Assembly: GCA_014377015.1 (NCBI GenBank)
Contig: JACMQL010000047.1
Coordinates: 17,105 to 81,104, forward strand
Length of the DNA: 64,000 bases
Direction: 5' to 3'
Source: Actinomycetota bacterium
Lineage (GTDB): Bacteria > Actinomycetota > Actinomycetes > Nanopelagicales > Nanopelagicaceae
Both the position numbers and the translations under genes were made by a program. Below the pieces are notes generated by a model. It was not told where the DNA came from. It was given only the letters and a program-made list of their open reading frames with translations, and did no database searches. Positions 53,054 through 57,856 of the stretch are shown piece by piece (position 1 is the stretch's first letter; every line of letters begins with the position of its first letter).

Positions 53054-54250
53054 TTAGGTTCGCCGAATGACCAACGCAGTGACGTCATCGTTAACGTCGG
53101 CATTTTGCGCCACCCTTTCGAGGAGGCTGACTACCTCTTTCGCAGTATCTCCAGCGAGCACGACGTCACTAATTTCATCGAGGGCTTCCAATGTGCCAGA
53201 GAAAATATCCAACATTCCATCACTTAGACATAAAAGCGTGTCACCAGGGTACATCACTAAAGATTTGATATCCCATTTCTCGGCAAAGCCGATCCCTAGC
53301 GGAAAATTAGTGGTAGCGAGTCGAGTGACGTCCCCTTGCTTTGATACGTGCAAGGTGAGCCCATGTCCGGCGTCAATATACCTAACGGTGTTTGTTTCAA
53401 CATTTAGCCTGCCATGAATTAACGTCACAAAGGCACCGGCTTCGGTTAAGTCTGCCTCCAAGATCTCGGCGGCAATTTGAACCACTCGATCCGCTTCATG
53501 GTCATATGCTGCGGCGCGAAAAACTGCTCGTACAGTTGCCGCAATTATGGCGGAACCCATTCCTTTACCCATGACGTCAGCAACTGTGAATGCGGCTCCG
53601 TGTTTAGTTGCGCGCCAATCATAGAAATCGCCGCCAACAGATTGGGTCGGCCGACAAAAACCGGCAATTTCGTACCCAGGCAAATGGATAAATGCGGTTG
53701 GTTTAAGTCCGCGCTGAACTTGAGAGGCTCGGTCGAGCTCGCGAGCTCGAATGACTTCACGTTGCACCCAATAAACAACGTCGTTGAACATTTCGAGTTC
53801 GTCGGCGCTAAATTCTCTGGGCTTTGTATCCCACGCACACAAGACACCTACTGCTTCACCGGAACTGGTCTGCAATGAGTGGGCAAGGTAGCTTTTCAGA
53901 TCAGGCACATCGTTCAATATTTCGTGGCTGAGAATACGTGGATCGGTTTCGGCGTTCGTGATTAAGATTGTTTCATTGCTAAGCAGCGTTGTATCACAGG
54001 GATTTTTGCCGTCCCTTATTTGGTGAACCGGAGTTCCGCTCTCCATGCGGACCCAGTTTCCATCAGCACCGATTAGTCGAATAAATACATGTTGAATTCT
54101 AAAAATTTGGCGGATGAGATTGGCAGTCCGTGCTAGGCGTTGTTCCCACTCAAGATCACGACGAAGTATTTGCTCTTCCGGAAGAATTTCACCGGAAACC
54201 CCCATTCCAGATACTTGGATTTCAACAGACGAAATCTTAGTGTCACTCAT
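53054..54250 (-). CDS. GAF + PP2C (SpoIIE/RsbU-type) serine phosphatase
   Basis: GAF-like ETILITNAETDPRILSHEIL...AHSLQTSSGEAVGVLCAWD; PP2C GYEIAGFCRPTQSVGGDFYDW...VADVMGKGMGSAIIAATVRAVFR...CLSDGMLDI...NDDVTALVIR. Confidence 0.93.
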   Translation of the reverse strand: MSDTKISSVEIQVSGMGVSGEILPEEQILRRDLEWEQRLARTANLIRQIFRIQHVFIRLIGADGNWVRMESGTPVHQIRDGKNPCDTTLLSNETILITNAETDPRILSHEILNDVPDLKSYLAHSLQTSSGEAVGVLCAWDTKPREFSADELEMFNDVVYWVQREVIRARELDRASQVQRGLKPTAFIHLPGYEIAGFCRPTQSVGGDFYDWRATKHGAAFTVADVMGKGMGSAIIAATVRAVFRAAAYDHEADRVVQIAAEILEADLTEAGAFVTLIHGRLNVETNTVRYIDAGHGLTLHVSKQGDVTRLATTNFPLGIGFAEKWDIKSLVMYPGDTLLCLSDGMLDIFSGTLEALDEISDVVLAGDTAKEVVSLLERVAQNADVNDDVTALVIRRT

Positions 54251-54657
54251 TGTGTTCTCTTTCTAAGAATGCGCCAAACATTTTGTTCGCCTTCACGCGC
54301 ATAAATGAATTCATCAACAAGTGCATTGATCAAGGCAATTCCTCGTCCACTTTCGGAATATGCGTCTGGCATTTCAACTCCGGTTAATTGAATATCACCA
54401 GGCTGACCCGTATCACGTAAGTTTGCCTCAATTTTGTCCGCCGAAATTTCTACCGACAGCAAGCAGGAAATCCCACCTCCATCGTCTGCGTGCCGAAAAA
54501 TGTTGGAAGCTAGTTCGATCAAGGCTGTCTCAAATCGGATCTGATCTTCGGCACTTACATCAGGTGATTTTTCCCAAATTATGCGGAGAAGTTCATGCAC
54601 CGAATCAAGCGTATCTGGCGGCGTATCAATGATGAGTGTGTGGGCTGCATTATTCAT
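54247..54657 (-). CDS. RsbW-like anti-sigma factor / HATPase_c serine kinase
   Basis: RFETALIELASNIFRHADDGGG...NLRDTGQP...SESGRGIALINALVDEFIY; start set at ATG 54657 overlapping the STAS stop (ATGA), overlaps the phosphatase start. Confidence 0.88.
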   Translation of the reverse strand: MNNAAHTLIIDTPPDTLDSVHELLRIIWEKSPDVSAEDQIRFETALIELASNIFRHADDGGGISCLLSVEISADKIEANLRDTGQPGDIQLTGVEMPDAYSESGRGIALINALVDEFIYAREGEQNVWRILRKRTQ

Positions 54658-54989
54658 TCGATCACATACGCACTCTCTGCACTCGCGTACGGAGTTAGCA
54701 CACGATCTAAATTGGTCAACTGAAGGACCAATTTGACCTGCTCCGTCGCTGCCGCAATCCGCAAATCCCCGTTGGCTTGGCGGGCTGCCTTCAGACACCC
54801 AATGAGCGCTCCCAAACCCGACGAATCTAAGAAATCAACAGATGACAGATCAACGACGATTCGATTTTGGCCATCAGCCAAAACTGAATCGACAACTTCA
54901 CGCAGGCGGTGAGCGTGAACCATATTTAGCTTTCCTACAGGAAGGAGGACTGCTACTCCGTCTGCCGTTACCCGCTTAGTAATCTCCAT
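54654..54989 (-). CDS. STAS-domain anti-sigma factor antagonist (RsbV/SpoIIAA-like)
   Basis: VVDLSSVDFLDSSGLGALIGCLKAARQANGDLRIA; start at internal Met of ORF 54654..55019. Confidence 0.9.
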   Translation of the reverse strand: MEITKRVTADGVAVLLPVGKLNMVHAHRLREVVDSVLADGQNRIVVDLSSVDFLDSSGLGALIGCLKAARQANGDLRIAAATEQVKLVLQLTNLDRVLTPYASAESAYVIE

Positions 54990-56934
54990 CTTTTTCCTCC
55001 CTTTGGATATCAGATCCACGATATAAAACAGCCGGGATAAGCACCCTTAGTAGTGATAGGTCGAATATTACCCACATGACGTTGATTACCGTGGCCAGCA
55101 ACGGAGCTCGCCCAGTGGCATAACGGGCGATGCCTACAAATAGCGAAATAACAAAGGCTGCCATAAATATAAGTTGCGGACGAACGAGCCTCCAGTTTGG
55201 AGAATTGTCACTGCGAGTTTTTGGTGTCACGACGAAAGTCATGGGCCGATTGAAGTAAACATTCGCGAATGAAGTAAATGATGCCTTGATCCAGACGGGG
55301 AAAAGCGCATAACTATATTGCTGACCTCGCCAAGTAGATATACCTCGACTTGCCAGAATAAAAATAAGTTGGTTTGCCAACATAAACGGAATAAATCTCA
55401 AGAAGAATTCGAGGGGATCCGTACTTACGGGAAGGATGCCAAAACACAGAAAGATTATTGGGGCGGCGAAATAAAATAGCGCAGCAAATCCACTGAAGTA
55501 GCTCCACATCGTGGAGAAATACATGAGTCTTTGCGGCCAACTCATACCCTTTTGGAGTAATGGATTCTCTTTTAGGAAGACTTGCATTGTACCTTGTGCC
55601 CAACGCAAACGCTGAGTGAGCATAGATCCAATATCTTCTGGAGCTAAGCCAATTGCAAGTATTTCGTGGTGATAAACGCTTTTCCATTTCATACCGTGCA
55701 ATCGCATACTTGTCGCCATGTCCTCCGTAATAGATATGGTGGAAATAGGCATGATTGGAATTGCTTCGTGAGAGCGGTCAACATCCAAAGATGTTAGAAG
55801 TTCCATAACAGATTCGAGTGCAGTAAGGGGACTGAACTCTTGAGAGGAAAGTTGATCGAGTGAATCCTCAAGACTGTCCAACCATTCCGCTGCCCAATTT
55901 GCATCGTCAGATTGGTTAATCCCGATTTCAGTTAAGTCATGTTTGATTTGCGCCACATCGATGGATATTAGTTCTTGCGATATTTTGGCGATCCGATCAT
56001 GCAAAATGTAGGTCGATTCTCCCAAGGTCATCCCCTGTCGAACGTTCTCCTTTGTTTCGCGAACTGATTCAAGTATTTGGTCTAGGGCACGCTTAAGTTC
56101 CTCATCAGTCGCCGTGAGTTGTTTCTTTGCTTTCTTAACGATTTTTTCTGACTGATTGAGCGATCGGTCTATAGCCGCCGCTAATTCAATTACATAACGC
56201 TTAATTCCTAATTGCATCAGTGCTTCTCTGCGAAGCACTGCGTTAGAACCGCAGAAGTAAGCAGCGCCCCAGCCGTCTTTTCCCTGTTGAATAGGCCCGT
56301 AGAAAAGAGGTGCCGCGCTTCCTAGTGGATCTGCGATTGAGACGTTTCCGAATTCTTGGGGAGTTTGGACGAGGGCAACGCCAGCGTCCCTAAAGTAGCC
56401 CAAAGTGTGATCGAGGATTTCTGGCATTGGGACTTGGTCGGCATCAAGGATGAGAATAAATTCCCCGCTAGTTAGCATAAGCGCGTTGTTTACATTTCCA
56501 GCTTTTGCGTGGCGAGGACGATTGCGCCACTCGGCACCTCGAGAGATGTAGCCAATTCCGAGCGCTTCGACTTGAAGGCGCAATTCTTCACGTCCACCAT
56601 CGTCGAGTACCCAGGTACTGTGCGAGTGTCGAATATTTTTGGCTGCAATCGCTGTATTTATTACCAGGTCGATAGGTTCATTGTAGGTAGTGATGAAAAC
56701 ATCAACGGTCAGACCTTCCGGTGGCGCAAGTGGAGTCGGTCTGGCTTTCGCGCGCCAAACTGTCATGCTAAAAAATAGGGCGTCAATAATGCTGTACGTC
56801 TCACAAATAACTAGGGGAACTGCTATCCACCAAGCCTTCATATTTAGAGAAAAAAGCCATCTCCAGGTGATGTATGAGGTTCCAAGAATTGCGGAAAGGA
56901 CTATCGTGAATCGCAGAGCTGTCAGTCGACTCAC
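54976..56934 (-). CDS. BcsA-like family 2 glycosyltransferase with a large internal helical insertion
   Basis: VDVFITTYNEP, VLDDGGREELR, LILDADQVPMPEIL, VQTPQEFGN, FCGSNAVLRREAL, SITEDMATSMRLH, QRLRWAQGTMQVF, multiple TM segments. Confidence 0.92.
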   Translation of the reverse strand: MSRLTALRFTIVLSAILGTSYITWRWLFSLNMKAWWIAVPLVICETYSIIDALFFSMTVWRAKARPTPLAPPEGLTVDVFITTYNEPIDLVINTAIAAKNIRHSHSTWVLDDGGREELRLQVEALGIGYISRGAEWRNRPRHAKAGNVNNALMLTSGEFILILDADQVPMPEILDHTLGYFRDAGVALVQTPQEFGNVSIADPLGSAAPLFYGPIQQGKDGWGAAYFCGSNAVLRREALMQLGIKRYVIELAAAIDRSLNQSEKIVKKAKKQLTATDEELKRALDQILESVRETKENVRQGMTLGESTYILHDRIAKISQELISIDVAQIKHDLTEIGINQSDDANWAAEWLDSLEDSLDQLSSQEFSPLTALESVMELLTSLDVDRSHEAIPIMPISTISITEDMATSMRLHGMKWKSVYHHEILAIGLAPEDIGSMLTQRLRWAQGTMQVFLKENPLLQKGMSWPQRLMYFSTMWSYFSGFAALFYFAAPIIFLCFGILPVSTDPLEFFLRFIPFMLANQLIFILASRGISTWRGQQYSYALFPVWIKASFTSFANVYFNRPMTFVVTPKTRSDNSPNWRLVRPQLIFMAAFVISLFVGIARYATGRAPLLATVINVMWVIFDLSLLRVLIPAVLYRGSDIQREEKDGDY

Positions 56935-57061: not shown

Positions 57062-57856
57062 GTGCATATCAAGAAAGCCGTCGTTCCGGCAGCAGGACGT
57101 GGGACTAGATTAGAAAGAATCACATTGGTCAATGCCAAGGAGTTAATACCTCTAGTAGACCGACCGGCAATTGACTGGATCGTGAAAGAAGCCACGTCGG
57201 CAGGCATCGAAGAACTATGCATCGTCACGAGCGTAAATAAACTGGCGGCTCTATACGCTCACACTGAAGATCTTCCCATTCAGGTGACTTACTTGATTCA
57301 GTCCAAACCGCGTGGTCTCGGGCATGCAGTGCAAGTCGCGCGTGACTGGTGTGGAGATGACCCGTTCGCGCTGTTACTTCCTGATGACCTTGTTATGGGC
57401 GACCCGATCTTAACCAGACTGGTCGCGCACGTGAGTGCAACTGGCAACTCGGCATTGGCATTGACAGAAGTTCCGCAGACGAAGGCATTTATGTACGGTG
57501 TTGCGGCAGGAGAAAACATTGATGGTGTTGTTCAAATTTCTGATTTAGTTGAGAAACCGCCTAGCGGGACAGAACCATCAAATCTCTCTGTTACGGGTCG
57601 TTATGTACTGACTCCAGACATTTGGCCGCTGCTTGAGAAAGTTGAACCAGGTGCCGGAGGGGAGATTCAGATCACGGATGCGCTTCGCGGATTGGCACAT
57701 GAAGGCAAGCTTGCCGGCTTGGTTACGCAAGGAATGCGCCACGATCTTGGCTCGGCTGAATCTTGGTTGAAGGCGAACATCGCCTATGGTGTCGAGGTCT
57801 ACGGAATAGATTGGTTGGACGACTTTCACGCGTTGATAAATAAGAGTTCGCAATGA
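57062..57856 (+). CDS. galU: UTP--glucose-1-phosphate uridylyltransferase
   Basis: KKAVVPAAGRGTRLERITLVNAKELIPLVDRPAIDWIVKEA; ALLLPDDLVMG; TGRYVLTPDIWPLLE; GTG start. Confidence 0.9.
   Translation: MHIKKAVVPAAGRGTRLERITLVNAKELIPLVDRPAIDWIVKEATSAGIEELCIVTSVNKLAALYAHTEDLPIQVTYLIQSKPRGLGHAVQVARDWCGDDPFALLLPDDLVMGDPILTRLVAHVSATGNSALALTEVPQTKAFMYGVAAGENIDGVVQISDLVEKPPSGTEPSNLSVTGRYVLTPDIWPLLEKVEPGAGGEIQITDALRGLAHEGKLAGLVTQGMRHDLGSAESWLKANIAYGVEVYGIDWLDDFHALINKSSQ

Follow-up and report, generated by a model that had tools for sequence, protein, structure and literature searches.

A helical insertion in BcsA/CelA-like synthases of actinobacteria and its linkage to a partner-switching cassette

A BcsA/CelA-like synthase gene of a freshwater actinobacterium, located in the window (the whole stretch of 64,000 nucleotides that was analysed), carries an insertion of about 150 residues in its catalytic core and shares an overlapping operon with genes for a STAS protein, an RsbW-like HATPase and a SpoIIE-type phosphatase. 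The earlier note on this DNA did not mention this STAS/HATPase/PP2C cassette, which holds the key to the locus. What is understood of how bacterial cellulose-type synthases are controlled after translation concerns mainly c-di-GMP and PilZ domains, and partner switches of the RsbU/V/W type normally control sigma factors in bacteria; the locus brings together two puzzles, a synthase that lacks PilZ but has an unexplained insert, and a partner switch that has no sigma factor. On balance, we think that the insert probably serves as a docking site for the partner switch, which would thereby gate the synthase in place of PilZ and c-di-GMP. Synthase, insert and switch make up a real, conserved and apparently unnamed combination, and the open-access literature gave no report joining cellulose synthase, partner switching, STAS and anti-sigma, one Clavibacter paper listing the genes separately.

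The synthase and its operon

The features of the locus are as follows.

57062..57856, plus strand: GalU-like nucleotidyltransferase, divergent neighbour, probable UDP-sugar supply
54976..56934, minus strand: GT2 synthase, BcsA/CelA-like, 652 aa, GTG start, without PilZ
55735..56196, minus strand: helical insertion, aa 247-400 of the synthase, between FCGSNAVLRREALMQLG and SITED, with three confident helices and two less certain ones
54654..54989, minus strand: STAS protein of 111 aa, an RsbV/SpoIIAA-like anti-sigma antagonist carrying a DSSGLG phospho-site motif
54247..54657, minus strand: RsbW-like HATPase_c_2 protein (serine kinase/anti-sigma type), ATG start at 54657, about 136 aa
53054..54250, minus strand: GAF + SpoIIE-type PP2C phosphatase, RsbU-like, 398 aa

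The synthase has all core features of BcsA/CelA, namely D, DxD, TED, Q(Q/R)xRW and the FxVTxK gating loop, found here as DDG (residues 111-113), DAD (164-166), TED (403-405), QRLRW (441-445) and FVVTPK (567-572). TED and QRLRW-type motifs were present in all 105 insert-bearing sequences collected and FxVTPK in 100 of them. The top curated-family matches were the cellulose synthase models PF03552 and TIGR03030, the score against the latter, the CelA equivalog model, lying far below its cut-off (332.4 versus 699.1 bits). The AlphaFold2 model (mean pLDDT 78.6) was closest to structures of BcsA (9b8v, E 1.2e-25), the UDP-forming cellulose synthase catalytic subunit, which gave the best match in both sequence and fold (4p00, 9b8v) and shares the GT2 core, the motifs, the TM layout and the FxVTxK loop. 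The protein would be a processive beta-glycan synthase that is embedded in the membrane and belongs to the cellulose-synthase superfamily. As it scores below the cut-off and has no PilZ domain, it is not a BcsA equivalog; it differs from BcsA further in the insert of about 150 aa before TED and in the partner-switch genes of its operon.

The synthase and cassette genes overlap throughout: the first 14 nt of the STAS gene lie within the synthase gene, with a GGAGG ahead of its start codon, and the STAS/HATPase and HATPase/phosphatase junctions are both ATGA. Family matches of the HATPase (HATPase_c_2, 49.3 bits, cut-off 27.4) and of the phosphatase (SpoIIE/PP2C, 108.6 bits, cut-off 25) were well above threshold, and the HATPase shows N-box E..N and G-box ESGRG motifs. 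The three protein families are those of the RsbU/RsbV/RsbW sigma-B switch, with signature residues intact in the window; N-box, G-box and PP2C metal-site residues are conserved in the cassette proteins, and the DSSGL phospho-motif was found in 72 of 75 STAS proteins. A promoter and terminator scan at the locus gave nothing beyond chance. The divergent GalU-like gene, which adjoins the synthase gene also in the two closest relatives (L031 in genome G235, and G520; identity 88-90%) and was not detected near the synthase in other genera, points to a probable UDP-sugar substrate.

A conserved insertion in the catalytic core

The earlier note had described a helical insertion of about 150 residues in the GT2 region at 55745-56200, and alignment to BcsA confirmed it, placing it at residues 247-400 (56196-55735). 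When the family profile was aligned with BcsA of E. coli (7lby), family positions 7-241 corresponded to BcsA 201-447 and positions 394-627 to BcsA 449-683, and the stretch between FCGS-NAVLRR and SITED comprised about 150 residues in the synthase versus about 2 in BcsA. In 20 of 20 insert-less actinobacterial relatives, no more than about 10 residues lie between these two blocks. Full-length insert-bearing homologues occur in many genera (overall identity 53-79%), so the insert is no chance feature. Two AlphaFold2 runs agreed on long helices at 236-271, 278-299 and 304-336, followed by two less certain ones, and helices 1-3 had block pLDDT values mostly of 85-95 when the insert was modelled alone; the helical nature proposed from the letters was thus recovered in both models, and the insert is predicted to form a helical bundle. 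Searches against Pfam, PDB sequences and PDB folds found no convincing known-domain relative, only generic helical or designed bundles, and the PDB fold search matched no known partner-binding fold. Searching with the insert alone, as the earlier note had proposed, likewise gave no specific relative in the PDB, either for the insert profile or for the isolated-insert model.

In the tree, a single branch with full support (100/99) sets the insert family apart from all other sequences, and judged from these sequences the insert characterises one monophyletic group among the actinobacterial synthases. The insert therefore most simply arose once, and the linkage counts given below are not independent events. 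One outcome that the earlier note had named as refuting it, that the segment is a standard element of a known GT2 subfamily, applies by half: the segment is constant within a clade of GT2 enzymes, but Pfam and NCBIfam have neither a name nor a model for this clade. Across the phylum, the insert was seen in the window genome and in one further synthase (G061), with one marginal match, among 397 genomes, a sparse sample in which only nine candidates per genome were scored and which is not a measure of absence.

One alternative is that the insert is a mere spacer in the structure that has no particular partners and was kept by descent, cassette and synthase being linked only through the inheritance of the operon as a unit. 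Its divergence, faster than that of the core (mean pairwise identity 41% for the insert, 73% for the catalytic part), would fit such a spacer, as would the dependence of the linkage counts on one ancestor. However, its length is nearly constant across genera (mostly 148-154 aa, extremes 148-172 among insert-bearing homologues), and six residues inside it, T308, P369, A372, R387, E390 and A391, are invariant in a 35-member alignment. With the linkage and decay data described below, we regard a mere spacer as highly improbable.

Plant cellulose synthases offer a positional precedent. At the corresponding point of its GT2 core, plant CesA (7d5k, 6wlb, 7ck3) carries about 116 inserted residues, the matched blocks in CesA7 (7d5k) ending at 621 and resuming at 738. 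The class-specific region is located in this gap. The insert could then be a bacterial counterpart of that region, tethering synthases together or to other components, with the partner switch acting elsewhere on the synthase, for example on the gating loop. The common site and the predicted long helices speak for such an assembly element, yet the insert profile gave no CesA match and found no similarity to the plant region; the parallel is one of position. Plant CesA also carries a plant-conserved region and a RING domain, both lacking in the synthase studied here, which is bacterial and linked to a phospho-switch. A role in assembly would, moreover, leave the near-perfect linkage of insert and cassette without a reason, and we consider it unlikely.

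Absence of PilZ from insert-bearing synthases

The FxVTxK gating loop of BcsA is tied to its PilZ switch. Pfam searches found no PilZ domain in the synthase or in 34 relatives, nor in any protein of the host genome, where GGDEF proteins are present. Insert-less relatives differed, with PilZ in 6 of 20 as against 0 of 35 insert-bearing members. The tail after the gating loop is also short in the insert family, at 71-116 residues, compared with 79-304 residues in the 11 insert-less relatives that have the loop (at least 189 in six of them). No PilZ match and a short tail together support the absence of c-di-GMP control through a fused PilZ domain, other effects of c-di-GMP being possible, and the earlier claim to this effect was borne out.

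The cassette accompanies the insert

A HATPase gene adjoins the synthase gene in 102 of 105 insert-bearing loci (81 of 83, and 21 of 22 from a class-wide search, where the sole locus without it lies at a contig end), and STAS and PP2C genes also accompany most of them. Beside insert-less synthases of the same class, by contrast, neither STAS nor HATPase was found within flanks of about 5 kb (0 of 20). That the synthase is nearly always accompanied by the three-protein switch suggests that the switch controls the enzyme itself. The earlier note had offered the insertion as a regulatory or oligomerisation element; the kinase gene beside nearly every such synthase lends its regulatory half indirect support, and oligomerisation is still a possible role.

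The arrangement of the genes varies. The PP2C gene leads at most loci of Arthrobacter and Nocardioides and stands at the end in the window and in several Microbacteriaceae, and at L057 the whole cassette precedes the synthase. Paenarthrobacter aurescens TC1, a laboratory strain from soil, has the complete operon (L058). Persistence of the linkage despite this reshuffling again argues against a spacer inherited passively with its operon. Synthase and HATPase were the only such genes within about 5 kb at 28 loci, those whose record titles were inspected being Curtobacterium. Correlated divergence of the insert with its potential partners, corrected for the catalytic core, was weak and singled out no binding partner (partial correlations 0.22 for STAS, 0.21 for PP2C and 0.10 for HATPase).

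No SigB-type sigma factor found with the switch

STAS proteins, SpoIIE phosphatases and short HATPases of the RsbW type were each found just once in the host genome, all in the synthase operon; other HATPase matches lie inside open frames of 400-530 aa. The only substantial SigB/F/G-type match was a 591-aa open frame scoring 132 bits against a cut-off of 234, which we read as the housekeeping sigma factor, so that the cassette differs from the sigma-B switch in having no cognate SigB-type factor found in its genome. The search for sigma factors covered 12 genomes. No SigB/F/G-type factor exceeded the cut-off in G000, G014, G018 or G235, the first three having no match except one of housekeeping size each, and G235, which is 99% complete and has one STAS protein and one SpoIIE phosphatase, having no match at all.

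Presence of the switch followed presence of the insert-bearing synthase. Among 251 genomes of the family, SpoIIE scored over the cut-off in 5 and the insert was found in 6, all 5 SpoIIE genomes being among those 6; in the sixth (G520), synthase, STAS and HATPase were present and a PP2C/SpoIIE phosphatase was not found. In same-genus genomes with an insert-less synthase (G008, G009, G013 and G020), neither STAS nor SpoIIE was found. A remnant operon, L174 (G366:C53), indicates joint decay, its synthase being interrupted by a stop and its phosphatase reduced to an 87-residue remnant, with STAS and HATPase not found there. With a partnerless spacer, one would not expect synthase and switch to occur together and to decay together in a family with so few copies of the operon. 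As the partner switch occurs only where the synthase exists and no SigB-type sigma factor accompanies it, the synthase is most simply its client.

The cassette could nevertheless serve in the canonical way, controlling an alternative or primary sigma factor that transcribes the synthase operon, while the insert does something else. STAS/RsbW/RsbU trios classically target sigma factors, linkage of genes in an operon could reflect transcriptional control, and the Chlamydia Rsb network, which reportedly acts on the primary sigma factor, would be a precedent for a target of housekeeping type; the sigma-factor search, moreover, spanned only 12 genomes. Against this stand the lack of any SigB/F/G-type factor beyond housekeeping size in the four genomes named above, the absence of a sigma gene from the flanks examined and the confinement of the SpoIIE phosphatase to insert-bearing genomes within the family. 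We give transcriptional control through a sigma factor a low probability.

In a tree that held insert-bearing sequences, with insert-less rows absent, the window synthase (L001) and L031 lay on a separate branch from L002 and L003 (G018 and G014, same genus) among Microbacteriaceae sequences, which suggests separate acquisitions within Nanopelagicaceae.

Proposed mechanism and comparison with known switches

Under the favoured reading, in which the insert is a docking site for the switch, the cassette encoded in the same overlapping operon would control the synthase post-translationally. In the idle state, the RsbW-like HATPase would be bound to the insert and keep the synthase switched off. 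On sensing a signal, through a GAF domain in the window or a receiver domain in an Arthrobacter example, the phosphatase would dephosphorylate STAS at the DSSG serine, and dephosphorylated STAS would then capture the HATPase and release the synthase. The association of insert and cassette is observed, whereas the synthase as client, the insert as contact site and the sign of control are inferred. The HATPase is favoured over STAS as the direct ligand of the insert because the Curtobacterium loci keep the HATPase alone. Alternatively, STAS itself might bind the insert, by analogy with the binding of SiaC to SiaD. The more general proposition, that actinobacterial polysaccharide synthases are controlled directly by a sigma-type partner switch whose kinase or STAS component docks on the insert, we judge to be evenly balanced.

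Known systems provide partial parallels. In SiaABCD of Pseudomonas aeruginosa, likewise built on a trio of phosphatase, kinase and STAS-like protein that directly switches an enzyme, the STAS-like protein SiaC attaches to a helical stalk, similar to a coiled coil, in its target enzyme SiaD, a diguanylate cyclase (PMC8457831). SiaC is a DUF1987 protein, and the target proposed here is instead a polymer synthase, with c-di-GMP bypassed. STAS-based partner switches are also tied to polysaccharide or biofilm loci in SypA/SypE of Vibrio fischeri and HmpU/V/W of Nostoc punctiforme, and a review gives the targets of SypA and HmpV as unknown (PMC8256260); the operon described here, in contrast, holds a candidate target together with a candidate docking site. 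If the proposed mechanism is true, a cellulose-synthase-like enzyme would be gated independently of c-di-GMP, a partner switch at a polysaccharide locus would have a concrete target other than a sigma factor, and the output of a surface polymer would be tied to a phosphatase-sensed signal without a second messenger. The hypothesis is testable with small soluble proteins, and in Curtobacterium the local module comprises just synthase and kinase.

Variant loci

Arthrobacter sp. ISL-30 has two insert-bearing synthases, one without a cassette nearby (L059) and one with it (L102), and the cassette could possibly act on the L059 synthase in trans. At L104 (Pseudarthrobacter sp. NamE5, in a record titled plasmid pE5100), the synthase is read as two ORFs with the break close to query residue 390, and the cassette genes lie upstream; no plasmid copies of the insert-bearing synthase were found in PLSDB. 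Directly after the HATPase gene, a Curtobacterium locus (L061:7357-9870) and a Nocardioides locus (L041:7704-10193) each carry a gene for a protein of about 830 aa, with no Pfam match in its N-terminal half and a domain of the OpgC_C glucan acyltransferase type as its C-terminal half; this protein may modify the polymer.
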